Assembly (NCBI RefSeq): GCF_018143015.1
Contig: NC_054743.1
Location: 44,550,922 to 44,614,921 of the forward strand
DNA length: 64,000 nucleotides
Reading direction: 5' to 3'
From: Lytechinus variegatus
Lineage: Eukaryota > Echinodermata > Echinoidea > Temnopleuroida > Toxopneustidae
A model generated the notes under the pieces. It saw nothing but the letters and a program-made list of their open reading frames with translations, was not told the DNA's origin and searched no databases. Below are positions 2,766-57,084 of the stretch, piece after piece. The position numbers and the translations under genes are program-made. Each line of letters opens with the position of its first letter. The first letter of the stretch is position 1.

Positions 2766-3904
2766 TAGAGTATAATGGTCCCCCCTTCTGATCTTGGCTG
2801 TCGTTCGCGCGATCGCGCAGAAATTCCAAGTATTTTCAATGCTGCTTTTGCCCTTTCTTTAATTCTTGCTTTTTCTTTTACTTTCCTTTCTTCCCTTCTT
2901 TTCTATCTTAGGGCCTATTTGTCTTTTTTTTTACTTCTTTCTTCCTGTCAAGTGTCATTTTGTTCATCCATCATTCCTTTCTTTCTTTGAGTTTTGTTCT
3001 TTCATTCATAATTCTTCTTTCTTTCTTACTCTCCCTCTTTCTATCTTTTTGAATGAAGAAAACTTGTTGACGTGTAACACTAACAAATTAACATTTACTA
3101 TTTAGTTTTATTATTTTCTTTTCCTTCTTTCCTTCCTTTCTTTTCCTCCTTCCTTTGGCTTCATTTCTTTCTTCCATTTTTCCTTCCTATCTAAATTATC
3201 TTCTTTATTTTTTCTTCATTCTTTCGATTTTTATTCTTCCACGAGTAAAATTGTAAAAACTGTGTTAAGAAGCGGGAATTTGAGTTAGCTCCCTGATTTA
3301 AGTTAGCTCCTGATCCAACGCTTCCCTGCGGCGGCGCAACGAAGGGCTATGCCGACACGAACCGGTTTATCGCTCGCGCTCCCGGTACCAGGCGTTCGCG
3401 AGCGACCATAGACAGTACCGGTAAGTAGACACAGTTCAGCAACAGCGGTGCGGCAGCGTTTGTGATTTAAACAAAAGTACATAACAGTCTTGAAATTTCT
3501 CACCATTGAAAGTAAAGGTAAGCTATTATCGGCAAATAGGTAATCCTGGGTTTTAGGGGCGTAAAATATCTGTATACATTACCGGCCTCTAACTTCAGCC
3601 ACAGCATCCCAGCATAGTATGGACGACTAAAAGGGCAAATATTCAAATATGATTGAGCTGTTTTCATCAATTTTGTCTCGCAGGTAGCTGGATGAGTGGA
3701 TCTTTTCTTGAAACTTTGGCATTAGGGCAATCAAGTTTCACTGACCGAGTTGAAAGTCACATGATCAAGGTCAAAGGTCATTTGGGGTGAAAATTTTAAC
3801 AAAAATTATTGTATTTTCCCCAAGAAATTTGACTACTACCTTTAATATCAGCTTATTGCTGGTAGCCTGAACAAGGTTAAAGGTCATCTTAATTCGAAGG
3901 GAAT
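2766..3904. other. Non-coding stretch with pyrimidine tracts
   Basis: From 2850 to 3240 the plus strand is dominated by TTCTTTC-type pyrimidine tracts. A GC-rich island lies at 3300-3440. At 3755-3900 there are two AAGGTCAAAGGTCA-type units of the kind recurring in echinoderm repeats. No gene could be supported. Confidence 0.45.
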
Positions 3905-6372
3905 TGGCTTGAAGGGGGGGGGGTACTTCCAAAAACCCTACATTTGAGTGGAGAGAGGATCAAATTGGCATAATATACTACCGAATTGTACCTACTGGGT
4001 TTTAGGATATATAAACTATGTTTTGGCTGGGGGTGGGTATAACCCTATGATTTAATTGGAGAGGGGGTGAAATTGGACTATATATATATATATACTACCG
4101 TATCGTACCTACTGGGTTTTAGGGGTATAAATCATGTTTTGGCTTGAAGGGGGGGTGTACTTCCAATAAACCCTACATTTAATTGGAGAGGGAATGAAAT
4201 TGGCCTATATATATTCCTATATTGTACCTACTGGGTTTTAGGGGTATAAACTATTTTTGTGCTTCAGGGGGGAGGTATACTTCCAAGAACCCTACATTAT
4301 AGTGGAAAGGAGATCAAATTGGCCTATATATATTGCACCTACTGGGTTTTAGGGGTATAAACTATTTGTTGGCTTGAAGGGGGGGGGTACTTCCACGAAC
4401 CCTACATTTGAGTGGAAAGGGATCAAATTGGCATATATATATACTACTGTATTGTACCTACTGGGTTTTAGGGGTATAAACTACTTTTGGCGGGGGGGGG
4501 TATAAATCCTATATTTGATTGGAGAGGGGATGAAATTGGTCTATATATATACTACTGTATCGTACCTGCTGGGTTTTAGGGGTATAAATCATGTTTTGGC
4601 TTGAAGGGGGGGTGTACTTCCAATAAACCCTACATTTAATTGGAGGGAATGAAATTGGAATATATATATTCCTATAATGTACCTACTAGGTTTTAGGGTA
4701 TAAACTATTTTGTGCTTCAGGGGGGAGGTATACTTCCAAGAACCCTACATTGAGTGGAAAGGAGATCAAATTGGCATATATATACTACTGTATTGTACCT
4801 ACTGGGTTTTAGGGTATAAACTACTTTTTGGCGGCGGGGGGGGGGTATAAATCCTATACTTAATTGGAGAGGGGATGAAATTGGCCTATATATATTCCTA
4901 TAATGTACCTACTGGGTTTTAGGGTATAAACTATTTGTTGGCTTGAAGGGGGGGGGGTACTTCCACGAACCCTACATTTGAGTGGAAAGGGGATCAAATT
5001 GGCATATTAATACTACTGTATTGTAACTACTGGGTTTTAGGGTTATAAACTACTTTTTGGCGGGGGGGGGGTATAAATCCTATATTTAATTGGAGAGGGG
5101 ATGAAACTGGTCTATATATATACTACCGTATCGTACCTACTGGTTTTAGGGTATAAATCATGTTTTGGCTTAAAGGGGGGGGGGTGTACTTCCAATAAAC
5201 CCTACATTTGAGTGGAAAGGAGATCAAATTGGCCTATATATATTGCACCTACTGGGTTTTAGGGGTATAAATTATGTTTTGGCTTGAAGGGGGGGGGGGG
5301 TAACTACCACGAACCCTACATTTGAGTGGAAAGGGATCAAATTGGCATATATATACTACTGTATAGTACCTACTGGGTTTTAGGGGTATAAACTACTTTT
5401 TGGCGGGGGGGGGTATAAATCCTATATTTAATTGGAGAGGGAATGAAATTGGCCTATATAATATATATCTATATACTACCGTATTGTACCTACTGGGTTT
5501 TAGGGGTATAAACTATGTTTTTGGCTGGGGGTGGGTATAAAACCTATATTTAATTGGAAAGGGGATCAAATTGGCCTATATATATTGCACCTACTGGGTT
5601 TTAGGGGTATAAACTATTTTTTGGCGGGGGGGGGTATAAATCCTATATTTAATTGGAGAGGGGATGAAATTGGTCTATATATATACTACCGTATCGTACC
5701 TACTGGGTTTTAGGGGTATAAATCATGTTTTGGCTTGAAGGGGGGGGGGGTGTACTTCCAATAAACCCTACATTTAATTGGAGAGGGAATGAAATTGGCC
5801 TATATATATTCCTATATTGTACCTACTGGGTTTTAGGGGTATAAACTATTTTTGTGCTTCAGGGGGGGTATACTTCCAAGAACCCACAAATAGTTGAAAG
5901 GAGATCAAATTGGCCTATATATAATTGCACCTACTGGATTTTAGGTTAAACTATTAGTTGGCTTGAAGGGGGGGGGGGAACTACCACGAACCCTACATTT
6001 GAGTGGAAAGGGGATCAAATTGGCATAATAACTACTGTATTGTACCTACTGGGTTTTAGGGGTATAAACTACTTTTTGGCGGGGGGGGGGGGTATAAATC
6101 CTATATTAAATTGGAGAGGGGATGAAATGGTCTCTATATATTCCTGTATCGTACCTACTGGGTTTTAGGGGTATAAATTATTTTTGGCTTGAGGGGGGGG
6201 GTACTTCCAGAACCCTACATTTGAGTAGAGAGGGGTAAAAATGACATAATATATATACTACCGTATTGTACCTACTGGTTTTAGGGGTATAAACTATTTT
6301 TTGGCTTGAAGGGGGGGGGTACTTCCAAGATACCTACATTTGATTGGAGAGGGGGTGAAATTGGCTGGGGGG
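3905..6372 (+). repeat. G-rich minisatellite, about 21 units of 105-130 bp
   Basis: Head-to-tail units share a fixed order: a G-run of 7-14 bases, TACTTCCAAGAACCCTACAT, TTGGAGAGGGGATGAAATTGG or a variant, a TATATA tract, then CTACTGGGTTTTAGGGGTAT. The CTACTGGGTTTTAGG landmark occurs about 21 times between 3980 and 6290, roughly every 105-130 bp. Copies differ by small indels, mainly in the G-run and the TA tract, and at least two variant types (GGCTTGAAG and GGCGGGG) are interspersed. There is no coding potential. Confidence 0.9.
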
Positions 6373-21487: not shown

Positions 21488-21925
21488 AAGTTTCAAGTTT
21501 CAAATTTATTAACGATCCTTCAAATAAAACCCCGAAGGGGGTGTACAAGGATACAACAAATGAAATAACATAACCTCTGAGGCAGCCCACTCATACCTTC
21601 CACACTGGAGCATGAGGTCGATGTGGAATCAAACAATGATAGTCATAGTGGAGAGGTCATGTGTGGGTGGGCTCAGGGGTCATTCACAGCAGCATGACAA
21701 GTGAAGTATAAACGATAATAAACATGGCAAGATACATAAAGAGTGATAACTATAAAACTGAGTGCTGTTCCATCAAACTAGACAGCTTTTTTTTTTTTTT
21801 TTTATTTTATTTTTTTTTTTTTTTTTTTTATTTTTTAACATAATGATCTACTTAACAAATAAAATTGAAAACTTCATTTAAAACAGTATGTGAAATATCA
21901 CGGTTATACACATGTACTTATTAAG

Positions 21926-24900
21926 TTATTTAAATGCATTTATCACCAATTTGGTGAAGACAGCCAGGTTTTTAATGATTGGTATTTCCGTAGAATTAAA
22001 GAGAGAATACATTTTGTGAATATTGTCATAATTTATAAAATGAGTACCAAGAAGTGAGTTTCTTTCTTGTTCAAACTTACTACAAATAAAAATGTAGTGG
22101 AACTCGTCTCCTATTCCGGAGTTGCACAAAGTACATACTCTATTTATCCTTTCAGTATTGTCATATCTACCAGTCACAATTGGTATTCTGGAATTGCCAG
22201 TTCTAAATTTGCATAAATAATAGAAAAGAGAGGGGGGAAGAGTTATCAAGTACTTCTCTAGTTTATGGGTAGTTTTGAAGATACGATAGTTCGAGCATGA
22301 ACTGGAGCTATTAATATCTGAAGACCATCCTTGACAAAATTGATCTTTTAGTCTTTGAAGTAGGCGTTTCTTAAAACTAGATATAAAGTCAATTCTTTGG
22401 TTCAGCCAAGCAAAGGAATATCCATTACATTCAAGAACATGCTTCACAAACAAAAGCCAGTTAGAATGAAATTTGTTATCAGCACTAAGAGAATACAAAA
22501 GCTTATAAATAATACTAGATGTCCTACATAAATCGCTAGTAACTAGTCTATACCAACAAGAAACTACTCTACTTTTAACATAAATGTCTAATGGGAACCT
22601 ACCAAGCTCTCCATATACCACACAGTTAGGGGTAGATTTTTTAACTCGTAAAATAGATTTACAATATCTTAAGTGGAGTTTTTCAATCAGAGAATTATTT
22701 TCATGACCCAAAATTTCACAACCATACAAAAGAATTGGTACAACCAGAGAATCAAATAAATTTAACTGAATATCAATAGAGAGGTTTAAGTTTCTAGATT
22801 TACTTATGAGAGCATACATAGCCCTAGTTGCCTGGTCATAGAGATATTTTTTTGCTTTACTAAAATTTCCATTATAATTAAATATAATACCCAAATACTT
22901 GTATTCAAAAACAACCTCAATTTTTTCATTTCGGAAAGTGAATTCTGGTATTCTCCTAATTCTACCCTTTGAAAAGACCATGACTTTTGTTTTCTTAACA
23001 TTTACTGTGAGATCCCAGTCAGTACAATAGGTTTCAAATGCATTTAAAGCAGTCTGGAGATCATCTTTACTTTCAGCCATAATAATAGTATCATCAGCAT
23101 ATAACAACGTATTTAATTTTAAATAAATCACAATATCATCAAAATCAACTTCATTTTCAATTAAGTCTGAAAGAGCAGTGAGGCCATTATATTTACTGAA
23201 CAGTTCTGTTTCCATATCATTCAAATAAAGAGCAAAGAGGAGTGGAGAGAGGTTATCTCCCTGTCTTACTCCAACCTGACTCGGGAAAATATCAGAAATA
23301 AAACCACTTGGATGTTTGACACACGATTTTGCTTTTTTATACAGGTTTGAAATAGTGATCAAGATTTTACCATTGATGCCATTGCTGATTAGTTTGTGCC
23401 AAAGTTTGTTTCTACTTATCGAATCAAAAGCCTTCTTAAAATCAACAAAGGCACAAAACAGTTTTTTATTCATGTATCTTGTATACACATCAATAATACA
23501 TTTTAATGAAAATAAATGATCAATGGTTGAATACTTGTGTCTGAATCCAGCTTGATTTTCCTTTAAAATGCCATAATCATCAATAAATGTGGTTAACCTG
23601 TCATTTAAGAGGGAAGTAAACAATGTACCAATACAGCTAAGGATTGAAATACCCCTGTAGTTACCAGGGTCATCTGCAGGTCCATTGTTTTTATAAATTG
23701 GGGTTATGACCCCGATGCCCCATATGTCAGGTACTACACCAGTATTTAACACAATATTAAATAATTTAGTGAGTATTGGGGAAATAACATCAGAAGTATC
23801 TATAATAAATTCATTCACTATACCATCAATACCACAAGCTTTATTCCTTTTTAACTTTTTAATTGCGTTCTTTACTTCATTGAGAGTAAAATCATTATTG
23901 ATAGGATTTTCAAGACCACAAAACTCTGGAGGGTTAGTGTTACCTGAAGATTGATTAAGTTCCTTAAAAGAATTAACAAGGTCTATAAAGCTGGCTTCTA
24001 ATGATGGTTTAAGGTTATATGCCTTGTCTTTAAGAATATTCCAGTATTCATTGGGCTTACTACATTTTAGATTACGCAGTTTATTATTGAGCTCATTATA
24101 ATAAGAATTACGGCAAGTCTTAATTTGTTTGTTATATTTTTTACTTTTTGCGATTCATTTTGAGTTTATTATATTCAGACTTTGATCTGATGAAGGTATT
24201 TCTGGCATTGCGATATTCTTTCCTCAATTTATTGCAAGAATGATTAAACCAGGGTTGCTTAAAATGCTCAATTCTGGCATTATGTGAATAGCAGTTGGAA
24301 ATTTTAGCTGAATTCAGTAGGAGATTATTGATAGAATTAGTAACTTCATTAATAGCATTATCATCCACTACTGATAAATTTTCAAGAAAGGAATTAAGAT
24401 GTTGTTCTATGAGAAGGGTAGCTTCAGCATTGAGATTTTCAATTATTTTAATTCTATGTTCGGGTTTCAATTTAGGTCGGGTAATTTTATTTGACGTGAT
24501 GCCAATATCAGAAACACCTTCACCATCAGCATTATCAGAATTAATAACATCATGCTCCTTACATTTAAGTTTAAACACTGCATGGACCAGGTTGTGTGCA
24601 TCAGAAAATAGCGGTTCAAAATCCAGTATTTCAAAGGTGGCTAGTCTGCATATTATTTCAGGGGACAAAATGAAATAGTCAACAATACTTGAGTTTTTAC
24701 AGGTAAATTTACCATCACAGTCACCTCTTAATCTACCATTAGCAATAAAAAGATTATTGTTTTTACATAATTCAATGAGTTTATGACCATACCTGTTTGT
24801 TTTCTTTTGCATACACTTTCTGTTAGTTTCAATGCCCAGGGCATCTAGATTAACAATGCTATTTAAATTTTCCAGGATGGGGAGGGATTGCAAATAATCA

Positions 24901-25601
24901 ACATTAAAATTAGTTTCAGATTTGACACTAACATCAACATAGTCAGACAGTTCACCACACCATGCGTTGAAATCGCCACATAAACAAACTGGAATTTTGT
25001 CTTTGTTTACTGGGTTAGCCAGCCTCAGAATATCTTCCTCAAGTGAATCAAATAAATCAATACTAGAAAAATGTGATGATTCCGGTGGGATATAAATCAC
25101 TCCTAATAGAAATTGGTTACCAATAAGGACTTTATCAAACAGAAGCCATAAACAGTGGTCATTATCAGAATTCAAAACAGTTATATGATTATAGATACTA
25201 TTTCTAACAAAAACTCCGACACCACCTGACTTGTGTTTGAATTTTGAACGATTTTGAGCAATAAACCTATAGTTAGGAACACAAATATTAGGTAGGTCAA
25301 ATTTATCCAATTTAGTTTCAACAATTGCAAATATATCATTATTAGTAATTTCATTAACAAAATCTGGGATATTCAGTTTGTTAACGAGTCCTCCAACGTT
25401 AAGTAGGGAAACGTTTACTTTGGCTGATGTGAAATAGGGGTGGTCGAGAGAGACATTATCGGTAATGTGATCATTTGCGTTATTTAGGGATCGGATATTG
25501 ATATTAGCAACAGTAGAGACAGTACAGGCAGGTTCGGTTGGCTCAGTAGGTTCATATATACAAGATCGTTGGACAGGATGATCCCGCCTCTCTGCAAGAC
25601 C
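21926..25601 (-). CDS. LINE ORF2, endonuclease plus reverse transcriptase
   Basis: Open from the codon after the ORF1 TAG. The AP-type endonuclease has VSLLNVGGL (catalytic Asn), IVETKLD (Glu), GVIYIPPES, CLCGDFNAW (Asp/Asn) and SDAHNLV (Asp-His). The RT follows with NKACGIDGI, NYRGISIL, NQAGFR, CAFVDFKKAFDS, GVRQGDNLSPLLF and LLYADDT, then a C-terminal CCHC-like CTLCNSGIGDEFHYIFIC. No Met codon occurs between the TAG and the endonuclease motifs. A single frameshift near 24150, in an A-rich run after MNRKK, separates the endonuclease and RT frames. ORF2 nicks the target and primes reverse transcription. Confidence 0.85.
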
Positions 25602-26555
25602 CTATTTGTTACTAGGCATCTCCAGGCCAAGCTTTACGTAATCAACACTGTCGACCCCAAGCTTGAAGAGGTCATCTGCTGTCTCAATGACAACTAGTCG
25701 CTTGTCCCTCAGGTTGCAGAACAATTTCCCGTTTCTGCTGTTGATCCTCTCGACGTTGGGTAGTGATTTGGCGTATGAAAGCAGTTTATAGCGGAGGGTA
25801 GTGAGGTCCTCGTTGATGTAGACCGTATCTTTGCAAGCAGGGACGTCTTTCAATTTTCTACGATTCTTTATCAGCTCGTCCTTTCGCATCCGGTTGGTGA
25901 AGCGACAGATGACTGCCCGTGGTTTTCCATGTTTAGGTTTCCCCACTCTATGAATGGCCGAGATATCTTGGCGAGATAAAGCGACGCCAATTTCAGCAGC
26001 GAGCTTTACCATTTTGTCAGCCAGATCCTCACTCTCCTCTTCAGCAAACCCAGAAACTTTTATGTTCTCCCTTCTTGTGTATTGTTCGAGGTTGTCAATC
26101 TCGTACTTTGTGAGGCGCCTGTGTGTGTCCAGAGAATCTTGAACTTGTTGGAGGTCAGCTCGTACCTTTTGGATAGGGTCTAGTTTTTCGTTGATTTTCG
26201 TCAGCATCTTTTCAAAAGCAGTTTCAATGAATTTGTTGAGGACTGGGACCATCATATCCACTGTTTCCATCACTATTTGTTTAGAGGAGCTTGGGCTAGA
26301 AGGGAGCTGAGCAGAGGCTCCATCTGAAGCATCAAGTAGGGACCGAGTGATCGCATCCCTATCATTATCACTCATCACGGGGGCTGACATGGGGTCTTGA
26401 TCATGACCAGGGTCGAGGTTCGTCATCGGAATCGGGTTTGTGTCATCAGTACCAGTCCCACTTGTCTTTTGTTTCTTCATCTCTCTGCGGGGAGTATTAG
26501 TGTTAGAGTGAGTGACATTACTGTAACGATCCCTCTTTTGGTTTGAGCTAGACAT
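25602..26555 (-). CDS. LINE ORF1, L1-ORF1-like RNA-binding protein (317 aa)
   Basis: The frame is intact with an ATG start. Residues 1-90 are polar and probably disordered. Residues 95-160 form a likely coiled coil (FIETAFEKMLTKINEKLD, then LTKYEIDNLEQYTRRENI). After this comes an RRM-like core with KVSGFAEEE, the conserved HRVGKP element and AVICRFTNRMRKDELIKNRR, then a C-terminal part (YINEDLTTLRYKLLSYAKSL). This is the layout of L1-type ORF1p, which trimerises and coats the LINE RNA. The stop is TAG and the next codons continue directly into ORF2 in the same frame. Confidence 0.85.
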   Translation of the reverse strand: MSSSNQKRDRYSNVTHSNTNTPRREMKKQKTSGTGTDDTNPIPMTNLDPGHDQDPMSAPVMSDNDRDAITRSLLDASDGASAQLPSSPSSSKQIVMETVDMMVPVLNKFIETAFEKMLTKINEKLDPIQKVRADLQQVQDSLDTHRRLTKYEIDNLEQYTRRENIKVSGFAEEESEDLADKMVKLAAEIGVALSRQDISAIHRVGKPKHGKPRAVICRFTNRMRKDELIKNRRKLKDVPACKDTVYINEDLTTLRYKLLSYAKSLPNVERINSRNGKLFCNLRDKRLVVIETADDLFKLGVDSVDYVKLGLEMPSNK

Positions 26556-28424
26556 TGCGAACTGTTAACCACAAACGGTTACCCACAAGCTACACGTAGA
26601 GGCGCAAAATGTTTACACGAAGTTAGTGCAGTGTATCTTTTTTTTTATGGAGACGAAGAGCGGGGGTTGTCAACGTGGCTGGGCTGCACTATCCGAGCAA
26701 AACGTGCGGGTACTGTACGTGGTCGACCGCGTGGTTTCTGCTATACAGTATACTGCTAGTGTTAATGCACAGAGCTGAATCAGCCGCAAATTTGTAAGTC
26801 CAAAATAACTCGAAGTAGATCACAACCACTTACGGGGACAGGTAAAGAAAGTCACAATGGCGAAGGTAGTAGTATAATTGCAAGGATAGCATCCAATTAT
26901 AAGAAAAAACTTTTGATGGAAACCGTTATTATCCGTCCAACTCCAGCGTCAGCGCAGAGACGTTCACTCGTCAAACCGCCATCCGAAGCCAGGATGCAGA
27001 TTTGCCATAGATATGGGAGATGTTACAGTTGCAAGTCAAAAGTTTTATGAAACGGGCCCCTGGTCTCTTCACTTTGCTGCCTTGCAGCGCAGCGCCCATC
27101 TGCTGCAGGTGCACTGCGCCACGATCTTGATAAAAAGAATTTTGCTGAAATGCTAAAGCATTTGTATCGGAGATTAGAGGTTCGTTATGTGTTGAAATTA
27201 ACTGTTGTCTTTTCCCTTTCTCTCTCATTTATTGTACCTTTGTGCTTTTTTTCTTTTTTTTTCGAACGCGTTCTGATTTTCACATCCACCTATTTGAATC
27301 CATTAATTTGTAGCTTTCTTTCTTTTTCTTTTTTTTTTTGTTTTACAATATTTTATTTGCCTCTGTCTCGGGGCCATGATGGGGGGGGGGGGGTTCTTCT
27401 TTAACTTAATTCCTACTTATTTTAAAAACTACATACTTTTCATTTCTATGAGAAATCTTCTCCAACAAAATTTGAAGAAACTTATTTTAAAGATCAAACA
27501 AGCATTATTTAAAAAGAAAGCCGAAATTTTATTGAAATTTGATGTACAAACGTTATGACATTTATAGGTTTTTATAGGTAGGGAAAACGATGGCATCACT
27601 CACTATTTTTTCTTCTGCATTTTATTCTATATTCGTTTAAATACTTAAGGGGTCTATGCTTATTTTTTCATTGTCAGAAACGTGGTTTAATTCACCCCTG
27701 CACATTGCTGCATCTACCGTGATTTGGCAATTTCAGAATTTCATTATTGTCAAAAAAAGTGTGCAAAAACAAAATAGTTTATGAAGCTAATAATAAAAGA
27801 AAATATAGAAAAATAATAATCATATTTTCCCTATAAGTTCACAATTTCTGTCTCCTTTTTCCCCTTTTCTAATTTCTTTATTACCAAATATAGTCCCTAT
27901 TCCTTATTTTACTTGTTTCTATATACCACATTTCCCCCTTTATTTTATTACCTTTTTAGCTCTCTCCTTTATTATCTTCCTTCCTCCTTCCTTCCTCCTA
28001 GTATTAAACCGATTTGATGATATTTATACGAAATGAAAGCCACATTTAGCAAGATATGATGAGACTTAATGTACCTCTTATTACCATTATCTTTCCCCAC
28101 TGGAAAGTCCGCTAATTAAGCGCTATGAGACTTTTCAGAATACCAAAAGTCTCGTAACCACTCAATTAAATCTTCGCGCGGTCATAACGCGTACTATTGC
28201 AAGTGCGCGCAACGCAACCCTGCCAAATAAGGAAAGGGGCACTTAAGTGACTTTTCAGAATACCAAAATGCTAATTGAGCGCTAATTGACCGCTAATTGA
28301 GCTTTCAGAATACCGCCCCGGGTCAATAGAATAATATATCACTGATGGTTCCAAATAAATTCTACAACATTTTCATGATCCATAATAGGGGCAGCCGTTA
28401 TTTTTCCGAACCTATTTTTGGCAA

Positions 28425-30223: not shown

Positions 30224-31693
30224 TATATCTTTTACTTGTTCCCAGAACATCGGGTAGAATTCTATTATAATTACGTCCGTACCTGGGGCTTTATTCTTTT
30301 GCATTCCAAAGACAACACGTTTGCACTCTGCTGTAGTTAATAACCCATCACATGATTCTTTCTCTTCATCACTCAATTTACTTAAATTTTGTGAAGAATT
30401 TACTTATTCATCTCTTTAAGATCAATCAGGTCTTTTGTATACAACTGTGCATAATATCTTCTAACCTCTTTTATAATTTCATCATGCTCATTTCAAACTC
30501 TTTTTCCATTTTGAGATTTTAGTTGTTTTATTTCTCTTGTCTTAGCATTGTTTTTCTCAAGGCTTGAAAAAGTACTTCGTATTCTTTTCTCCTTTATTGA
30601 TCCATTTCATCCTCGCCCTGATACCGGCCCCTTTTGTTTCTGCTTCATAAACAAATTCTATTTTTTTTTTAAACACTGGCGTACCTATTTTCTGTATCTA
30701 TATTTTGCACATTAACATCTATTTGCTTCTCAAAAAACATAGTTCCTCTTCTAAAGCTAACTTAATATTTTTTCTCACAACAGACTTATTTCTGCAGTAT
30801 TTTTGTGTTAATTTACGAATTTTTACTTTCAACAATTCCCATTTTGTCATTGCAGATAAATGTGTGTTTGAAAAAGATGCTATTATGTCACAAATTTGAT
30901 TTTGGTAAGATCTGTCCCTTAAAATAGACTCATTCATTTTCCAGTAACCTGGACCTCTTTTAGTCTTCTGTAAAGTTATCTTCAAAGAAATTGCATTATG
31001 GTCTGCTGGAATAGCAGGTCTAATATCTGCTGATATTGATTTATTATATTTTTATCTACTAACCAAAAGTCTAACCGCGATGCTCTCTTAAGGGACACAT
31101 TTCTCCTTGTAAACTGTTTCATTTGTGGATGCATTTTCCTCCAGACGTATTATGTTTCTTAATTATTTTCGGTAAATAATTATGTTTACTGTAATAACTA
31201 TTTTCTTATCCTTGTACATCTTTCTTTACGTTGATTATACAGTTCCAATCACCACCGAGTATAATTTCGGAATTTCGTGAATCAACAGTAAAACACTTCT
31301 TGTCAATATCTTGAAGCAATGAACAGAAGAAATTATCTCTATATTTCTTTTGTGTTGGTGCATACACATTTACAAGAATTATGCTTGTATCATTTATCAT
31401 CACATGCATAATTAATAACCTACCAACTTTTATGTGTTTAACTCAACATTCTCTATAACAAGGTTTTGTTGAAACAATATAGCGACTCCACGTGAATGAT
31501 TACTTCCATGGGAGAAAAAACATGGCCCTCGCCATTCATTTCTAACAATAAATTCTAAATCATGTGACCAAAATGTTTCCTGAAGAAAGACAATAACTGC
31601 TTTTTGATGTTTAAACCAACGAAATAATTGATTTCTCTTTTCCTTGTTTCTAAGACCTCGAACATTCAGACTTAAAAGATGGCAAGTGAACAT
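30224..31693 (-). pseudogene. Tx1/L1-like LINE ORF2, endonuclease domain (broken)
   Basis: Endonuclease blocks in order: LLSLNVRGLRNKEKR (Asn), VIVFLQETFW (Glu), IILVNVYAPT, IILGGDWNCI (Asp/Asn), a RLDFWLVDKN segment, and PADHNAISLK (Asp-His). The pieces lie in different frames (breaks near 31420, 31200 and 31000), so the protein is dead as written. Down to 30224 the sequence enters the RT N-terminal region and is then cut by the 15.4-kb insertion. Confidence 0.8.
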
Positions 31694-32639
31694 AAATATT
31701 TTAAGCTGAGATATTTGAACTCCATGCGTTGTTCCTCCTCAATGCCACTGATATGGTCTGATAAAAAAACCAGACATAAATGCCCGAAATACCTTTGATG
31801 AAAAGAACAGGTAGGTTTCAATGGGTATATTTATAAATGTCTCCATGGAAGATAACTTTATCTTTCCAACTGAAGTCTTTTGCCAAATAACAAAGAAATG
31901 TCGTTTATAATATACATTTGCCCTTTTCTCGGAATACTTATAATTCAGTAATTTTTTTGGCATTAACATTACACGTATAAAGATATTAACAGCAATAAGC
32001 AAAATTTCCATCAGATTTCCTTTTAAGCAGGTTTTTACATTCAGCTTCCATTTTTTATTTGTAATACTGTTTAGTTGCATAACACTATTCTCCATTGTTT
32101 GACTAAACATAGTTACCAATGTAGTGTGAGGTTTATGATCATATTTCATTTCTTTTTTGGTTGTCTTTTCTGTGCTTTTTGTTTTCGCCTTGTGTTCACT
32201 TGATTTTTTGCTTCTCGGTTTGCTGGTGTTATTTCAGGCGATTCTGCTGAAAGCTCAGAATATTCTTGCAAGCTTTCGGAATTGTCGTTTTCTGACTCCG
32301 CTGTCGAGTAGTCGTCATACGAATGACATTCATCGTGCTCGTTGCCGGTTTGTCGTTCCATATTGTGTTGTGATTGTGGCACTTTGGAAGAGTGAATTTG
32401 GTAATTGTCGTTTGTGATTTCATTGCTTCTTTAGGTGAGTCGGCTCTCGGTAGTGTCGTGGATTTATCACGTGATTGCATCTTACCCCCGCGATGTACGA
32501 GTGCGCATGTCTGTTGGGTTATTGTTATCCTCGGACTCATCTCTCGCACAGCGAATGAATTGAGCGATCTGCGATTGTTCTGTCGTCATGGTGGTTAGGG
32601 TCTCGTTGCTAGGACTCGGGACTCCCTGTGTGGGCATGG
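31694..32639 (-). other. LINE ORF1 tail and inter-ORF spacer
   Basis: Polar, frame-shifting sequence lies between the zinc-knuckle ORF1 and the endonuclease. Short open frames at 32146-32549 are Ser/Thr/Gln-rich and may be the degraded ORF1 C-terminus. The frame at 31739-32149 has a hydrophobic segment but no recognised family. Confidence 0.4.
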
Positions 32640-32711
32640 CACCTTGACTTCGCTTCAGTCGCGTCGCGTCGCTCTATTGACGGGTCTCGTTTGGCTTCTC
32701 ATCGTGCCTCT

Positions 32712-32870
32712 GGGGACCGTTTCATCAACATTTTTGTCCGACAAGTTGTCAGATCTGACATCTTTCCTTGATTCTGATTGGCTGAGAGGCATTGTTACTA
32801 TAGTAACTGTGGGATAAAATGGGACTTGTCAGATAAAACGTCCGACAAGTCCTTTCATGAAACGCTCCCC
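32712..32870. mobile_element. 159-bp MITE in LINE ORF1
   Basis: The left end GGGGACCGTTTCATCAACAT, then TGTCCGACAAGTT, mirrors the right end GTCCGACAAGT, then TTTCATGAAACGCTCCCC. A CTG on both sides may be a 3-bp target duplication (Harbinger-like), but the exact boundary is ambiguous. It has no coding content. Confidence 0.65.
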
Positions 32871-33572
32871 TGGTCTCGGGGTAGAGGGGCATCACTGGTG
32901 CTCTGGAGTGGAGGAAAATCCTCCCTGCATTCACGAGCAATGTGACCTGATTTGTTGCATTGTTTCCAGGTCACATCCTTGGTACAATGGGATCGGTGAT
33001 GTCCGGCTTCGAGACAGTTCGAGCAGGTCACTGTTGAGGCATTGATCGAATCTTGTCCAGAGTGATACACTCTTCCTCTGAAGAGGCCAAACATGATGTG
33101 TCTAGGTAAGGAGTGTGTAGGTTTCTCGATGTAGACTACACGATCTCCTGTCAAACAGTCCGTCAGTCTGCCATGAATTCGTAGTCGCTGTAGCGAGACT
33201 TTTCCTACAACTTTGCACTACACTTTCTCTAGTTCATCTGTTATTAAGGTACCACTTGCTGATAGCGGTACGTCTTTCCCGAGAAGGCGAAGTGTATCTT
33301 CACCTTGGCTAACGAAAGGTTTAGTGTCAAATACAGCCACAATTGCATTATTCAAGTTCGGACCATTGGTAATGAGATTGATTCGAGAGTTTTGACTTAA
33401 CAGGTAAATTCGCCACAATTCTCCGATATTCTGAATTCCTGTGATTTCGTTTCTCGAAACTACTCGCGAGAGTGCTTTGTACATAAGTTCATTACCAAAG
33501 TTTTTATCATTTTCTTGTGGGTTGTCGCGATGCCTTATGAAGACAGGCTTGCATGACGATCTGCTCCGTTCC

Positions 33573-42360: not shown

Positions 42361-42530
42361 TTGTTTGTATATTTCATCGCTGTTTTACCTTGAAAACTGT
42401 CATGAAACATTAGTGTCTTATTGTGTTGTTGAAATTAATCATTAATAAGGTTAATATGATTTCAATACACAGTGGATTGTAAAGAATGTAAAGTAATATT
42501 GTATTCATTTTCATGTTACTATTTCATCAG

Positions 42531-42695
42531 ATTGAGACTCTTGTTCTCTACGAGGATCTCAGTGAACATCCATCTGCATCACGTGATCTCGCTCACTTCA
42601 TCTGTAAGATGAATCATCTGAAGAACCTCACACTCTATGGTTATCATCATGATGACTTCTACTCAACATCATCGTCGAAGGCATCAACTACAAAG
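42531..42695 (+). CDS. NLR-type LRR exon, array copy 1
   Basis: The exon has 55 codons between an acceptor (TTTCATCAG|ATT) and a donor (CAAAG|GTAATA), phase 0 at both ends. It encodes IETLVLYEDLSEHPSASRDL, AHFICKMNHLKNLTLYGYHH and DDFYSTSSSKASTTK. The LxxLxL pattern, HLKNLTL core and DDFYST end match leucine-rich-repeat exons of echinoderm NLR (NACHT-LRR) receptors, thought to sense microbes in the cytosol. No NACHT domain lies in the window. Differences from its sisters are H for R (SEHPS) and K for M before ASTTK. Confidence 0.75.
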
Positions 42696-43494
42696 GTAAT
42701 ATACAGTAAGAGGTATTTACATGTAAAGGGACAGTACTTAATGAAACCATAATGCTCTTTAAATTGTCTCATGACGCTGCGATGCCTTATATAAACTACA
42801 ATTGTCAATTCCGCTTTGTAATGATTTTTTTTTTCTTGAATTGTTATTGAATTGTGATCAAAGGACCTGACTAAATGTAATTTCTCACTACCGACAAAAT
42901 CGAACAATGTTTCATTTTCTTATTTCAATTTATTATAATGCAATATAAATATTTAATGTAACGGTTAAGACATAAAAGCATATTGGTTGTATTTTGTATG
43001 GTAAACCGTTTGCAATTTGCAATTCTCTACTGTTTAAGTCTAATAGTGAGAAATATCTGTCAAAAGATAAAAATAGGGCAAAAGATATTTTAAAAGTTTT
43101 CTTTTTAACTCTGGGGACGGTTTGGTTTTTGGTACACAGTGGTTACATGATGCTGCAATGCGAAATTAGCCGTGTGTAACAGCTTTTAACAATTTTTTTT
43201 ATTCCTACTTCAATTTTCAGTTAATAAACGGGATGATAATTTCCTAAATGAGAGGTATGATGTTGTAAGAAACGCGCATAAAGGAATGTAAATTAAATTT
43301 TCATTTTAGTTGTTGATTTTATCGTTTTTGGTATATTTCATCGCTGTTTTACCTTGAAAACTGTCATAAAACATAAGTGTCTTATCGTGCTGTTGATATT
43401 AATGATTGATAATGTTAAAATGATTTCAATACAATTTGGATTGTAAAGAATGTAAAGTAATATTAAATTCATTTTCATGTTACTTTTTTATCAG

Positions 43495-43659
43495 ATTGAG
43501 ACTCTTGTTCTCAACGATTATCTCAGTGAACGTCCATCTGCATCACGTGATCTCGCTCAGTTCATCTGTAAGATGAATCATCTGAAGAACCTCACACTCA
43601 AAGGACATCATCATGATGACTTCTACTCAACATCATCGTCGATGGCATCAACTGCAAAG
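43495..43659 (+). CDS. NLR-type LRR exon, array copy 2
   Basis: The exon is 165 bp, phase 0-0, with the same splice sites as copy 1. It encodes IETLVLNDYLSERPSASRDL, AQFICKMNHLKNLTLKGHHH and DDFYSTSSSMASTAK. It starts 964 bp after copy 1, and the introns are also near-identical, so the whole exon-plus-intron unit was duplicated. It is closest in sequence to copy 5 at 59609 (both have NDYLSER and MASTAK). Substitutions cluster in the predicted LRR surface positions after LVL and LTL. Confidence 0.75.
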
Positions 43660-44407
43660 GTAATATATAGTAAGAGGTATTTATATGTAAAGGGACAGTA
43701 CTTAATAAAACCATAATGCTCTTCAAATTCTCTCATGACGCTGCGATGCCTTATATAAACTACAATTGTCAATTCCGCTTTGTAATGATTTTTTTTTCTT
43801 GAATTGTTATTGAATTGTGATCAAAGGACATGACTAAATTTAATTTCTCACTACCGACAATCGAACAATATTTCATTTTCTTATTTCAATTTATTATAAT
43901 GCAATATGAACATTTTATATAACGGTTAAGACATAAAAGCATATTGATTATATTTTGCATGATAAACCGCTTGCAATTTGCAATTCTCTATTGTTTTAAG
44001 TTTAATAGTAAGAAATATCTGTCGAGAGATAAAAACATGGCAAAAGATATTTAAAAAATATTTTTTTTAACTCTGGGGACGATTTGCTTTTTAGTATACA
44101 GTGGTTACATGATGCAGCAATGCGAAATGAGCCGTGTGTAACAGCTGTTAAAAATGATTTCTGCTTTGAGGAGTATGATGTTGTAGGAAACACTCATAAA
44201 TGAATGTAAAAAAAAAATATTGTTGTTGATTTTGCCGTTTTTCGTATATTTCATCGCTTATTTACCTTGAAAACTGTCATAAAACATAAGTGTCTTATCG
44301 TGCTGTTGATATTAATGATTGATAATGTTAAAATAATTTCAATACACATTGGATTGTAAAGAATGTAAAGTAATTTTGAATTAATTTTCATGTTACTATT
44401 TTATCAG

Positions 44408-44572
44408 ATTGAGACTCTTGTTCTCGATGAGGATCTCAGTGAACGTCCGTCTGCATCACGTGATTTCGCTCAGTTCATCTGTAAGATGAATCATCTGAAG
44501 AACCTCACACTCAATGGTTTTCATCATGATGACTTCTACTCAACATCATTGTCGATGGCATCAACTACAAAG
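44408..44572 (+). CDS. NLR-type LRR exon, array copy 3
   Basis: The exon is 165 bp, phase 0-0, encoding IETLVLDEDLSERPSASRDF, AQFICKMNHLKNLTLNGFHH and DDFYSTSLSMASTTK. It starts 913 bp after copy 2, slightly less than the usual period because its upstream intron lacks about 50 bp. The frame is intact with no missing LRR residue. Confidence 0.75.
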
Positions 44573-45369
44573 GTAATATATAGTAAGAGGTATTTATATG
44601 TTAATGGACAGTACTTAATGAAACCATAATGCTCTTCAAATTGTCTCATGACGCTGCGATGCCATATTATAAACTACAATTGTCAATTCCGCTTTGTAAT
44701 GATTTTTTTTTCTTGAATTGTTATTGAATTGTGATCAAAGGACATGACTAAATGTAATTTCTCACTACCGACAAAATCGAACAATTTTTCATTTTCTGAT
44801 TTCAATTTATTATAATGCAATATGAACATTTAAGTAACGGTTAAGACATAAAAGCATATTGGTTGTATTTTGTATGGTAAACCGTTAGCAATTTGCAATT
44901 CTCTACTGTTTAAGTCCAATAGTGAGAAATATCTGTCAAAAGATAAAAATAGGGCAAAAGATATTTTAAAAGTTTTCTTTTTAACTCTGCGGACGGTTTA
45001 GTTTTTGGTACACAGTGGTTACATGATGCTGCAGTGCGAAATGAGCCGTGTGTAACAGCTTTTAACAAGTTTTTTTTTATTCCTACTTCAATTTTCAGTT
45101 AATAAACGGGATGATAATTTCCTAAATGAGAGGTATGATGTTGTAAGAAACACGCATAAAGGAAAGTAAATTAAATTTTCATTGTTGTTGATTTTATCGT
45201 TTTTGGTATATTTCATCACTGTTTTACCTTGAAAACTGTCATAAAACATAAATGTCTTATCGTGCTGTTGATATTAATGATTGATAATGTTAAAATGATT
45301 TCAATACACATTGGATTGTAAAGAATGTAAAGTAATTTTGGATTCATTTTCATGTTACTATTTTATCAG

Positions 45370-45537
45370 ATTGAGACTCTTGTTCTAGTCTACAGGGATC
45401 TCAGTGAACGTCCATCTGCATCACGTGATCTCGCTCAGTTCATCTGTAAGATGAATCATCTGAAGAACCTCAAACTCTATGGTTATCATCATGACGACTT
45501 CTACTCAACATCATCGTCGATGGCATCAACTACAAAG
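45370..45537 (+). CDS. NLR-type LRR exon, array copy 4 (56 codons)
   Basis: The exon is 168 bp, phase 0-0, encoding IETLVLVYRDLSERPSASRD, LAQFICKMNHLKNLKLYGYH and HDDFYSTSSSMASTTK. It is one codon longer than the others: a local change replaced the LNED/LYED segment with LVYRD without breaking frame. NLKL replaces NLTL. Its downstream intron was the landing site of the Helitron-like array. Confidence 0.75.
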
Positions 45538-46976
45538 GTAATATATAGTAAGAGGTATTTATATGTAAAGGAACAGTACTGAATGAAACCATAATGCTCT
45601 TCAAATTCTCTCATGACACTGCGATGCCTTATATAAACTACAATTGTCAATTCCGCTTTGTAATGATTTTTTTCTTGAATTGTTATTGAATTGTGATCAA
45701 AGGACATGACTAAATGTAATTTCTCACTACCGACAAAATCGAACAATGTTTAATTAGGTGGTCTGTCTTTGACAGATCACCTCTTAATTTCGTCAGAATT
45801 TTCTTTTTATTAGGTGGTCTGTCTACGACAGATCACCTATTGATTTCGTCAGAATTTTCTTTATTAGGTGGTCTGTCTATGACAGATCACCTATTGTTTT
45901 CGTCAGAATTTTCTTTATTAGGTGGTCTGGCTATGACAGATCACCTATTGTTTTCGTCAGAATTTTCTTTCTTTATTTCTTTCTTTATTCTTGGCACCTA
46001 TGATTGTCGCCGACTTTTCTCGAAATTGGCTTAATCAATTTTGCTGATTTTTTCGTCATATATAGAATCTATCATAGAGACGGCAAAATAAGCTTTTCAA
46101 GGTCATGTGGTCATGATGACGTCATCTACGCGCCATTTTGTAAAATTCTTCATTTGATCATATCTTCATTATCAATTATCAAAAATTAACAATATTTACA
46201 TGACATTAACTTCATGTCAAGGGTCAACTGTCAATGTCATCAAAGGTCATGTAGAGGTCATGATGCGCGCGTACGCGCGCGTCAAAGGTAAAAAAATCGT
46301 CCAAATGACCTATAAATTTTTTTGGGTACGTTTCAGGTGACAATGACAATGACAATGACAATGATGACAATGACAATGACAATGATTTATTTACCCATGT
46401 CACCCTAATTCGGGTATTGGGGATATTATCATATAGAACATAACATATTCAGAATCATTTCAATTATATTTACAAAGTATTTACAAATATATACAATCAC
46501 ATGTTACAGAGTAATTGAATAAATACTACATGAAATTACTTTAGAGACGTAAAAGTAAAAGGAATGATGTGTCTCTAAATCAATTGGTGAGAGAAGGAGG
46601 AGAGACAAAATAGGAAAAGAAGGAAAAACAAAAGGGGAAGAGAGAGAGAAAAAAGAAAAGAACAAAAAGACAAATGATTGTAATAACAATAATTTTTAAA
46701 AGAAACAGTACTAACAATGATAATAAATAAATATGAATGAATGCGTGTTATAGAATTGAAAAAGTTGGAACTGCAATGCAAAGGCACCGATATGTGTATT
46801 TAACGTGGTTATATATATAATTATATTGGACTTTGGCATAAAAATTGATAAAAATTTATTTTAAGAAATTAGAGAGAATTAAAATTTAATTTATCCTTTA
46901 CCTAATTATTGTTTATTTACATATATACATGAACTTGTTTTCAAATAGAAAATGTTAACATAAATATTTTATTTGT

Positions 46977-49900
46977 TTATTTATTAAACTTATCCATTAT
47001 AATGCTACAAAATTTTGATAAATTTATTAATGTTGACATTTTGGAAGAATTGAAAAGCTTAAACATTTTCAATGCATTTGGACGGCTTGTATAGGAACCA
47101 TCAATATATTTCTTTCTTGCTGTAAGAAATGCAGGGCACTCGAACAAATAATGAAATTCATCACCCAGCTTTGATGTATTACATATGGTGCATATTCTCT
47201 GTGATCGCTCAATATTTGCAAATCTACCAGATGTTATTGGCAGACGGTGGTTTCCACACCGGAATCTTGTTAAAGTAATTCTGTATTTGAAAGGCAATTT
47301 TAGAAGAGATAATTCACAACTGCAATTTTCTTTGAAAATGCGATAGTTTAAGCACAGTGAATTAGAAAACATTTCAGCATGCCAATTTTGAGAGTATATA
47401 TCGTCCAATCGTGTTTTAATTGTTGCTTTGAACCACCGTGGATTTATTGGCTGATTATCAAACCAAAGGTAAGATAAGCCTAATTTATCCAATGTATTTT
47501 TTATTTTTACTAGCCACGGGTTTTGATATATATTCAGATCAAACATTATTTTCAGAATATCGTAAACAGTATGGGACAATTTTGATGTTTTGCTCTGGAT
47601 TATTTTAATCCAAAAGTTTAACATTCTGCACTCAATTAGTTTCTTGATACTGTGTTTACCGACCTCTCCATATGTCATGCAATTTGCAGTAAATTTACTC
47701 ACATGAAGAAGACGTTTATAATAACGACTTTGAAACATTTCAACATCTTGAAGATTACTTTCAAGACCCCACAACTCACTTCCATATAACAAAATCGGAA
47801 GTACCAATTTTTCAAACAATTCTAATTCAATATCAACTGGTAAACTCAACTTTATTGATTTGGAACGTAAACTGAACAATGCTTTTTGTGCTTGACTTAT
47901 TTGTTTTTTCCGAGCTTTCGAAAAGCGGTTATTATAATTCAAAACTGTTCCAAGATATGTATACTCATCAACAACCTCTAGCTGTTGATTATTGAAAGTA
48001 ATGATGGGTAAATTGCGGATCTTACCACGAGAGAATACGACAATTTTTGTTTTTTGTATATTTACATTCAACGACCAATCTTCACAGTATTTGTAGACAG
48101 CATTTAATGCTTCTTGGAGATCATTTTCAGATTCTGCTAATACAATGGTGTCATCAGCGTATAATAGGGTAAATAACTTAAGATATACACATATATTTCT
48201 CTCGAGGAGTTTTTCTTTCAGGCCATTCATAAGTAAATTAACACCATTGCAATTTTTTCTCAATGTATTGTCAAAATCATTGATAAAGATTGCAAATAAT
48301 AATGGAGATAGATTATCTCCCTGTCTTACTCCTATATTACGTTCAAAGAACTCAGACCGTTGTCCATTGCTCATAACATAAGATTTTGCGTTTTCATACA
48401 TATTTTGGATCACCTTGAGAATTTTGCCATTGATGTTATACTTAAGTATTTTAGACCACAATAAATGTCTTTTTACAGAATCGAATGCTTTCTTATAATC
48501 AATGAATGCGCAATAAATTCTTTTCTTTTGAGATAGATAAATATCTATCAGACTGTAAAGAGTAAATATATGATCTAGAGTACAATAATCCTCACGAAAT
48601 CCTGCCTGTTCTTCACCCATCAGGTTGCAAATATCAAAATATAAAGAAATTCGGTTATTTAAAATAGATGTGAACAGTTTACCTAAGCAACTTAACAATG
48701 TAATTGGACGATAGTTATCTGGTTCATTCACTGAACCCTTCTTTTTGTATATTGGGCAAAGGATACCTATTGTCCAGTCTGTGGGAACTTTGCCACAATC
48801 CAGTATTAAGTTAAACAGCTTTGTGAGGAGTTTCATCATAGGTTTGCTGCTATACTTTATCATTTCATTTAATACTAAATCATCACCGGATGATTTGTTA
48901 TTTTTAAGCTTCTTTAATTGATTTTCTATCTCCTCTTCCAAAATTGGATAATTTAGTTCAAGGCTGAAACAATTTGCTTCATTAGGTGTTGATTCCTCAT
49001 CTATAGTGCGTCTGTTTTTAACATCGTCTCCTTTATTCAGTAATTCAAAAAAATCTTTGAAAGAATCAATTGATACATTTGCACGATTCTTGGGCTTGGA
49101 ATTCGCCTTGCTAAGATATTTCCAAAGGTCGCCAATGTTATTATTTTTTACTTTCCTCAAATTGTCCTGAAGGTCAGAAACATATTTTGATTTTTTCTTC
49201 TTCAAAACTGTCTTGTATTGTTTGCGTAAGGTATTCAAAACTAATTCCATTTCCATTTTCATATTTTCATTTCTACATTTTTTAATTCTATTTCTTAATG
49301 TTAAGAAATTCTTTCTCAAGTTCTTACATTCTTTATCAAACCAAGGCTTCATTTTCGGAGATGCAGTGGTAACAGTCGTGCCAGTTTTTTTCTGCCGTGA
49401 CATACCACATAGAGTTGCAGCCTTAAAATATACTTGTTTTATTTGATTTACTATATCATTGACAGATTGAATACTAGTTTGGGGCATATTTCTAGTAACC
49501 TCTATCATTTCTAATATTTTGTTTATTTCATCTTCATCTAAGGAGTTTGCAAATGTGTGAGTTAATTCTGAATTCCATTTATAATATTTCTTTTTCAAGT
49601 GAGAATCATTATCGTTATTGGTGTAATGACTCTTCTCTTCTGGAAATATTTTTTTCTTAACATATTTCATGGAAACAAATATTGGACTGTGTTTATCTGA
49701 CAGACATTTTTCAAAGTTATCAACAGTAAAGTCTTCAATATGATCAATGAAATTTGCAGAGACAATACAATAGTCAACTGTGCTTGCGTCGGCGCAGGTT
49801 AATGCACCCTTACCATAATCTTGCCCAAAGCGGCCATTTACAATGTGCATGTCAGTAGCTTGACATAGATTAATCAGTTTGCGACCGTTAGCATTTACAA

Positions 49901-50544
49901 ACTTGTCTTCGTTAGATCTTGGTGGATAAGAACAAGTTGAGGGCATGTCTGCATTATCTGCCGACAAAATGACATTAACAGAAAAGGTAGAGTCATCATC
50001 TTCAATATAATGTATTAGTGATCCTGATCTTGCATTGAAATCTCCTATCAAACAAACTGGCAACCCCAGGGTACCATTAATTTTCATTAAATCATATATA
50101 ACATCTTCAAATAAATCATCATCGTAGTGTTTAGAATTTTCATGTGGCATATATACCGCACCAATTATAAAAGCAAAGCCATAAGCACCTTTATTCACTT
50201 TGAGCCAAAGGACAGAATCACTTTTGAAAACATTTACATCTAGTTGTTCAACATAATTTCTCAAACATTGTTTGGAAATGATACATAAGCCATGGTGTCC
50301 ACCAAGACGTGGGGAAGATTTGTCATTATTCTCTTTACAAATCATCGTATAGTCAATCAGTGGCAGGTCAATGTATTGAGATCTAGTTTCAGATAAACAT
50401 ATAAAATCAAAATCTTTTATATAGCACTCTAGTATACCAAGATCAAGTTTTTTTCTTTAGACCACATACATTTAGCCCTAATATCTTGAAGTTATTATTC
50501 AAACCCAAATCCAAATCATCAGATAGAATGGTACCTGCTAATTC
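46977..50544 (-). CDS. LINE ORF2, endonuclease plus reverse transcriptase
   Basis: Reading after the ORF1 TAG gives KILGLNVCGL (catalytic Asn), then one base shift in an A7 run at 50448-50454, then DFICLSETRSQ (Glu). An open frame of over 1,100 codons follows: FIIGAVYMPHEN, VCLIGDFNARSG, SDKHSPIF (Asp-His), NYRPITLLSC, EQAGFREDYC, CAFIDYKKAFDS, GVRQGDNLSPLLF, LLYADDT (about codon 728 from the first Met at 50345) and a CCHC-like CTICNTSKLGDEFHYLFEC. The first Met lies beyond the Asn and Glu motifs, so Met-initiated protein would lack them. The A7 slip may be a real mutation or an assembly error. Confidence 0.85.
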
Positions 50545-51375
50545 CTATTTTGACAGTGAGAATTTCTTTAACTGATCTTCAGTCCATCCAAGGCGGAAGA
50601 GATCATCACCTGTCTCCACTATGTATTTATCCTCCTTCCCATTCTTTGCAACAACGCAATGAATGCGGCCATCGATCGTCCAGATTTTCTTGGTGCTTTC
50701 TGCTCTTCGAATTGCGTGGAAAAGCTTGGCTCTTTGGGCAGTCAGGTCTTCCTCGATGTAGATCCCTCTGAGTTGGTCGTTCTCTCTTAAGCGTCGCTTA
50801 CTCCTCATTAGCTCAACTTTCCGCTCCCGTCTGACAAACTTCACGATGATGGGCCTATGTCGTTCTTGCTTGCTGGGAGTAGAGGGTCCTCGCCGCTTTG
50901 ATGTGGGCAGACGATGACTCACACTAATGTCGTCTGCGGTGATGTTGACATTGATCCTCCTCGCCAAAGCTACTACCTTCTCGGTGGTGTTCTCTCCATC
51001 TGTTTCCGGCACGCCGTAAACTCGTACATTTTCCCGCCGACCATATTGCTCTAGACGATCGATATCATTTTCCAGCTTCACTTGTTGAGATGGGTGAGAT
51101 GGCAACGGCGTTGGTCTCATCTGCTCTATCGCAGTTGTCACAGCCACCTTGACAGCCTGAGTCACTGCCTGGATGATAACCGGTTGTATGGCCATCAGAA
51201 CCTTCGTGATTATATTTTGCATATCACCATCAGAAAGATCAGATTTCCCCTTTGGCCTCTCCTTTCCACTAGTTGCGGCAGCTACAGCATAGGTGACGGC
51301 CTCCTCTATATTTGGGGGCGGTGCTTTCATAGCCACTTCGTCATCAAGCACGTCAAATCTATTTCCTGATGCCAT
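50545..51375 (-). CDS. LINE ORF1, L1-ORF1-like RNA-binding protein (276 aa)
   Basis: Intact frame. A short polar N-terminus (MASGNRFDVLDDEV) and a helical region at residues 50-110 (IITKVLMAIQPVIIQAVTQA) lead into a likely coiled coil (KLENDIDRLEQYGRRENV). An RRM-like core follows with VRVYGVPE, SHRLPTSKRR and PIIVKFVRRERKVELMRSKR, then a C-terminal domain (GIYIEEDLTAQRAKLFHAI). It ends SLSK-TAG, immediately continued in frame by ORF2. The role is RNA binding and particle formation, by analogy with L1 ORF1p. Confidence 0.85.
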   Translation of the reverse strand: MASGNRFDVLDDEVAMKAPPPNIEEAVTYAVAAATSGKERPKGKSDLSDGDMQNIITKVLMAIQPVIIQAVTQAVKVAVTTAIEQMRPTPLPSHPSQQVKLENDIDRLEQYGRRENVRVYGVPETDGENTTEKVVALARRINVNITADDISVSHRLPTSKRRGPSTPSKQERHRPIIVKFVRRERKVELMRSKRRLRENDQLRGIYIEEDLTAQRAKLFHAIRRAESTKKIWTIDGRIHCVVAKNGKEDKYIVETGDDLFRLGWTEDQLKKFSLSK

Positions 51376-52663
51376 TATGACGTCACAATAAGGTCAGTGT
51401 TAAGATGGGTGGTTGTGCGCGACAGGTTGTGTGCGCTACAGGTGCAACAGGTGCAAGACGTCTAGACAGTTACAAGCAGGTGCATCAATGGTTGCCAACC
51501 AGTCTGCGTTGTATCCACAATTTGATGCGCTGATGAAGATGGAGCTGGAATGATACGCACCCTGGCTTTACGTTGCTAGGATATGTGGATGCAACTGTCT
51601 CTTCTCTTGGTCACAGTCCGTTTACAGAATCCTCAAAAAATGGGTATTAACTGTGTTTTCAAGATTAAATCCTTTAAAAACTCCAAAAACCAGTGTCACC
51701 AACGGAAGCCTCAGAACGAGATCTCAACATTGATACACAAGTTTTTTTAACGATTTCAAAGATTAATGATTAAATGACGTCAATCTTGGAGCAAAAAGAA
51801 AACACGTCCTTACCCTTCAATAATTAGGTCATTTCAAGCATTTCAAAAATTTGCGCGCGTTTCCGCGCGTTACACCTTAACGCAACGCAGAAAAACCGTT
51901 TTTTTTTAATATCATTGCATTGCTAATAAAATTCTGAGCAATTTGATACCTTGATCAACCTTCTACAACCATTAATAACGAAATTAACATTCATTAAAGT
52001 TTGCAGCACGTGTGCGCGCGAGCTCTCACTATAGGCCATATATGGGCAAAAACATGCCTATTGTAAATTCACTGTAGCTCTTTAAAAAGTCCTTTGACCC
52101 CCAATTTTTTTCATATATCGATAGAGTATTAGTTGTAGATTTGATTTCATGTCACCATTGTCCCTAAATTATATTGTTACGTCATCAAATAGACGCCCAA
52201 ACTAAAAATTTCACTTTTTTCAAAAATGACGTCATCAAATTTATGCAAATTTGGCTGTAACTTCTCCAATATAGATCATTTTTCGCCCAGATTTCCATAT
52301 GTTGTAGTTTATAATGTACTCTTTCTCCTCAGTTAACATGAATATTCGTTTTGAGAAACGCATCATTGCGTAAAACAGCGATGAAAAGAGGCATGTCATT
52401 TTTCCTCATTTTGCGTGTAATCTCTATGGGACATGACTTTTTCCAAAAACTAGATTCGACATTCCTCTATTTCGTGAGCCATATCTCCATTTTTTCTTGT
52501 CAGCTTTCCTTGAGCTTTTAACATGTTGTAGCTGAGATTCTGGGCTATCGGGAGTGTGCCCTCCATTATTTGATCAGATGCCGGGATCATGCCCGTATTT
52601 CACTTGCAAAATTGGAATTGTAATTCTCAAAATTGCTTACGTGTAATCTCTATGGGGAATATC

Positions 52664-52722
52664 GTGGCTCAATGGATAACGCATTTGACTTGCTTTCTCG
52701 AGGGCGGAGGTTCGATTCCTGG
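52664..52722 (+). other. tRNA-like segment in Helitron-like unit 1
   Basis: GTGGCTCAATGGATAACGCA (A box and D-arm, close to animal tRNA-Arg) is followed 27 bases later by GGTTCGATTCCTGGGG (B box and T-arm). The anticodon stem and acceptor stem cannot be formed properly, so this is not a working tRNA. It may be a captured, decayed tRNA-Arg or a SINE head. Confidence 0.6.
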
Positions 52723-57024: not shown

Positions 57025-57084
57025 CGTGGCTCAATGGATAACGCATTTGACTTGCTTTCTCGAGGGCGGAGGTTCGATTCCTGG
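57025..57084 (+). other. tRNA-like segment in Helitron-like unit 4
   Basis: Same A-box and B-box layout as at 54565. It is followed by a T-run that could serve as a pol III terminator, as in the other copies. Confidence 0.6.

Follow-up and report, generated by a model that had tools for sequence, protein, structure and literature searches.

We identified in the sea urchin Lytechinus variegatus a clade of APE-type LINEs, comprising six families (A to F), in which ORF1 and ORF2 share one frame and are separated by a single conserved UAG, with no AUG ahead of the endonuclease motif in five of the six families. Judged from sequence comparison, read-through of this UAG is the best explanation of the junction, and a probable one. 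The analysis started from a stretch of 64,000 nucleotides of contig NC_054743.1 (hereafter the window), for which a sequence-only reading had proposed translational read-through of UAG between the two ORFs of a LINE, and the conservation of the TAG and of the frame among copies and families supports that proposal.

The window element (family A) lies on the minus strand at approximately 21790..26983, its 5' limit being the end of matching to the copies L008 and L009 and its 3' limit an A-rich tail recognized by eye. ORF1 (25605..26555, minus strand; 317 codons, ATG at 26555, LEQYTRREN motif) ends at a TAG (25602..25604, minus strand; context AAC AAA TAG GGT). The first part of ORF2 (24141..25601, minus strand) follows in the ORF1 frame, with a 66-codon linker (25404..25601, minus strand) that, as read in the copy L007, has no in-frame stop, ATG, CTG, GTG or ACG, and then an APE-type endonuclease (PF03372, E 6.8e-08). 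The remainder of ORF2, encoding the reverse transcriptase (PF00078, E 3.7e-34) and the C-terminal region, is found at 21926..24154 (minus strand) in a different frame. The window copy is a dead element, because a frameshift lesion at 24141..24154 (minus strand) breaks ORF2.

The sequence-only reading had described an ORF1 ending in NK-TAG, with the next codons (GLAERRDHPV) open into the endonuclease and no Met ahead of the LLNVGG and VETK motifs. Both observations hold: the frame from 25601 on is that of ORF1 and stays open for 486 codons, and the first in-frame Met is codon 264 (plus-strand position 24812), well downstream of LLNVGG (from codon 66) and of VETK. Three ATGs are present in the linker of family A, all in the +1 frame. 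A Pfam scan of the ORF2 of families A and C recovered the APE-like endonuclease and the reverse transcriptase (PF03372 and PF00078) in both. For ORF1, Transposase_22 was not found by Pfam scan in families A, B and E, the family A protein having no Pfam match of any kind, and family C scored 21.2 bits against Transposase_22, under the cut-off of 22.4.

A second element of the window, belonging to family C, has the same ORF1-TAG-ORF2 arrangement on the minus strand, with ORF1 at 50548..51375, the TAG at 50545..50547 and the start of ORF2 at 49683..50544, the latter carrying a one-base insertion about 31 codons in. By eye, we also recognized another LINE in pieces at 30719-33217 (minus strand), including the beginning of an endonuclease (LLSLNVRGLRNK; 31430-31738) and a CCHC ORF (32855-33217; both minus strand). 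Self-comparison of the window further revealed long tandem-like repeats (3904-6365, 42364-45755, 51826-58856 and 59076-60901), with repeat units common to distant parts of the window.

We searched the genome (870 Mb in 33 contigs, copy numbers being lower bounds) and found at least 5 copies of the family A interval at 99-100% identity. All five agree in the position of the TAG and in having codon 264 as the first Met, so that no family A copy shows a sense codon, another stop or frame, or an AUG before the endonuclease motifs, any of which the sequence-only reading had named as evidence against itself. No intact copy was seen among the five: L006-L009 have a broken ORF2, and L010 has an ORF2 open for at least 841 codons and a truncated ORF1.

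Relatives were gathered by genome searches with the endonuclease and with ORF1, yielding five further families (B to F) with the same junction, namely ORF1, a single in-frame TAG, a G at +4 and ORF2. Fragments of these families are 36% (B), 40% (D) and 39% (E) identical to family C, and those of family A 31%. Junction places comprise L017, L018, L021, L022 and L070 for family B (L021 and L022 look duplicated and were counted as two), 18 places for family C, L030, L013 and L103 for family D, L020, L035, L062, L097 and L098 for family E, and L019 and L096 for family F. Across the six families, the stop is TAG in 36 of the 38 junction places and the +4 base is G in all 38. The two exceptions, TAA in L088 and TGG in L089, are diverged members of family C, with identities of 93% and 81%, respectively, to the query of that family, L089 being full of indels. 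The TAG is thus no private damage of the window copy, since all five copies and five more families carry it, and we discarded the damaged-copy reading on these grounds.

The stop is flanked on either side by an open frame of at least 100 codons at 21 of the 38 places. Among the other 17, L090 and L097-L100 are short stretches that are open downstream to their end, and the remainder are damaged or truncated. Outside the set of 38 we left matches with no junction by eye, either truncated or decayed (L011, L012, L014-L016, L023, L034, L091, L095, L101 and L102) or consisting of other sequence (L092-L094), as well as one 60-base family B match that falls short of the junction and four family D matches beginning beyond it. 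Weak endonuclease and ORF1 matches also remain outside the set, and further families of this layout may exist. No relative was found in a scan of viral contigs, and in a scan of prokaryote genomes the only matches were two weak ones, to bacterial MAGs.

As controls, we used nine other LINE families with enough junction to judge. Eight of them (the L041-L046 group, L048, L069, L079, L080, L081, L082 and L083) have a Met before the endonuclease motif and no continuation from ORF1 through a single stop; L042 and L043 have ORF2 in the ORF1 frame by chance, but with a second stop and an AUG in between. The ORF1 of the L041-L046 group and of L048 groups with that of the window element. These ordinary LINEs of the same genome resemble family A in their homologous ORF1 and their APE endonuclease, and differ from it in that ORF2 has its own AUG and that further stops or another frame separate it from ORF1. 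Many ORF1-like genome matches contain one TAG or TGA, for example L079 (C17:7116758-7117429), whose internal stop is probably nothing unusual because it is the normal end of ORF1, included at the edge of the match.

Alternative splicing could account for the same junction if TAG-G were a 3' splice site that joins an upstream exon with an AUG to ORF2. The G that follows the stop at every junction place fits such a site, and so do acceptor scores (computed with rough base frequencies), by which TAG-G ranks 3/156, 12/155, 8/140, 23/145 and 4/172 in families B to F, that is among the top 2-16% of AG sites. In family A, however, it ranks 58/124 and has no pyrimidine tract, and the best donors lie at differing distances and phases from family to family, with no donor in common. 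Two duplicate copies of family D (L101 and L102) begin one base past TAG-G, which speaks for splicing, but they represent one old insertion that was duplicated, and their break is one base off; we read it as ordinary 5' truncation. The listed places of family C (18) and family B (7) all have their start elsewhere than at the junction; the closest, from family B, begins about ten bases upstream of the TAG. Under splicing, moreover, an ORF1 that terminates in frame at the acceptor has no explanation; for this reason we favor read-through over splicing, which we regard as very unlikely.

We then read the linker, from the TAG to the LNVCGL-type motif, in one copy per family. Linker lengths are 66, 20, 23, 17, 16 and 16 codons in families A to F, and the ORF2 frame tracks the TAG despite this variation of 16-66 codons. 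The six linkers together (158 codons) contain no in-frame stop, which only 2 of 20,000 base shuffles matched. The first in-frame Met lies past the start of the motif by 197 (A), 47 (B), 43 (C), 49 (E) and 17 (F) codons, so that AUG re-initiation cannot yield a complete enzyme in these five families. The exception is family D, with an in-frame Met two codons upstream of the motif, in a context with T at -3 and A at +4. The claim of the sequence-only reading that re-initiation at an AUG cannot give a complete enzyme therefore stands for A, B, C, E and F and fails for D. Its suggested survey of copies for a conserved UAG and frame with no upstream AUG had a similar outcome, the TAG being kept in 36 of 38 places and a Met being absent in five of six families, with family D departing from it.

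These linkers also bear on a second rival, in which ribosomes terminate and then re-initiate, either at an AUG or at a near-cognate codon. Such re-initiation, of which SART1 and mammalian LINE-1 are examples, is known from other LINEs (PMC5972666). The family D ATG and the near-cognates in strong context (purine at -3, G at +4), consisting of two TTG in family C and one ATT in family E, would be candidate starts. In-frame ATG, CTG, GTG and ACG are however absent from the linkers of A, C and F (near-cognates in the others being a CTG in B, an ACG beside the ATG in D, and a GTG in E together with a CTG at its motif), and out-of-frame ATGs are present in five of the six linkers. From its sequence, family D would make a complete enzyme by AUG re-initiation only from a poor context. 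Re-initiation moreover does not require the common frame, and we hold it to be more improbable still than splicing.

The TAG could lastly be an inherited defect of dead or trans-mobilized copies, the true element having a sense codon. The broken window copy and the lack of an intact copy among the five of family A are compatible with this, as is family G, the ninth control, which belongs to another endonuclease clade and is a partial look-alike. Three copies of family G (L077, L104 and L105) show a CCHC knuckle, a TAG and an in-frame ORF2 without a Met before the motif, and an older copy (L106) has CAG in place of the TAG, which indicates that an in-frame stop can be a lineage defect. Its ORF1 is SGNH-esterase-like by eye, with the esterase and CCHC parts sharing a frame in L106 but not in L104 and L105. 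The stop shared within family G may mark a lineage that became defective, or the layout may have originated there a second time.

For families A to F, an inherited defect is hard to maintain because six divergent families share the stop together with young, open copies of family C. Seven copies of family C have an uninterrupted ORF2 (1187-1191 codons), all seven with the TAG and five with the full 282-codon ORF1 frame. Pairwise comparison of four of these copies (L024, L025, L027 and L028) gave 0-8 differences over 2510 bases (an indel upsets comparisons with L032, and L029 lacks its 5' end), and by this measure family C has moved recently, TAG included. The lone sense codon within A to F, the TGG of L089, belongs to the indel-ridden copy at 81% identity. 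We rate a defect as the least probable of these three explanations.

A 2A sequence (DxExNPGP) at the junction was rejected: NPGP occurs in 2 of 108 loci (L044, in a context that is not 2A, and L075), neither of them in families A to F, and is absent from the window. In L075, an ordinary LINE ORF2, a 2A-like GDIQSNPGP is located about 468 codons into frame 0, and LINEs of the 2A-like and of the UAG type thus coexist in this genome.

To place the families, we built trees of the endonuclease (21 rows, family G among the controls) and of ORF1 (17 rows). In the endonuclease tree, families A to F form one side of a branch with support 93/91, which lies under the starred level of the tree tool, and adjoin the ordinary families L067 and L068. 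Given this common ancestry, the six families do not count as six independent trials. In the ORF1 tree, B to F come together (94/92) and family A falls with the ordinary L041, L042 and L048 (98/94). A tree that forces the ORF1s of all TAG families together is worse by 7.4 log units (p-AU 0.044), and grouping the family A endonuclease with L046 and L048 was rejected (p 7e-5). Family A looks like a chimera with an ORF1 from an ordinary LINE, because its ORF1 groups with ordinary families while the same grouping of its endonuclease is rejected, a reading that leans in part on the AU test at p 0.044. The long linker of family A includes VANINIRSLNNANDHI at the place of VSHVNIRSLQKNIDSL in L042, a match that is not significant by itself (E 5.4). 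The in-frame TAG layout may have persisted through this module swap. For a genuine chimera, this would mean that the one-UAG junction survived the exchange of ORF1 or was rebuilt afterwards, which argues for function. We lean towards the broader view that the whole clade makes its replication enzyme only as a UAG read-through fusion, selection having restored the junction without an AUG in family A after the ORF1 swap.

From the conserved junction we infer UAG read-through, with the ORF1-ORF2 fusion as the working enzyme. With ORF1 and ORF2 in one frame and the single UAG between them, the majority of ribosomes would terminate at the UAG, releasing the ORF1 protein, and a few would decode the UAG as an amino acid and produce a fusion carrying the endonuclease and the reverse transcriptase. 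The fusion would then form a low share of the product, in a ratio resembling that of Gag to Gag-Pol. In LINE-1, the ORF1 protein is an RNA-binding protein needed in excess. By local folding, we found no structure 3' of the TAG in the six families, as folds of 50-150 bases were no more stable than those of shuffled sequences.

In murine leukaemia virus a G directly follows the UAG. Its Gag-UAG-Pol read-through relies on a 3' pseudoknot (PMC5009743) and UAG read-through of Drosophila dfr employs a stem-loop (PMC13170385). The likeness of families A to F to gammaretroviral Gag-UAG-Pol is one in-frame UAG between the structural and polymerase ORFs in the same frame; they differ in being non-LTR elements with unrelated proteins and no local 3' structure found. 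Routes of ORF2 translation described for LINEs include re-initiation in SART1 and LINE-1 (PMC5972666) and, in Drosophila telomeric elements, either frameshifting or a start further downstream (PMC5972666, PMC5009743); recoding by 2A (StopGo) is described for non-LTR elements of sea urchins and trypanosomes (PMC5972666, PMC4981915). SART1, with its stop-start, and LINE-1 share with families A to F the need of a two-ORF LINE for a rule of ORF2 translation, but their ORF2 starts at an AUG, whereas families A to F (except D) have none before the motif and a frame in common with ORF1. The 2A elements are likewise recoded non-LTR elements, in part from sea urchins, but the loci examined of families A to F have a real stop codon instead of a 2A motif. 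We found no report of stop-codon read-through for a LINE ORF2 in the literature searched, whose reach ended short of most subscription journals and the Repbase notes.

The translation of ORF2 in LINEs has long been an unsettled problem. If our reading is true, this read-through clade would add a further route, together with a fused ORF1-ORF2 protein, and would make the ORF1:ORF2 ratio directly testable in a host group with known 2A LINEs.
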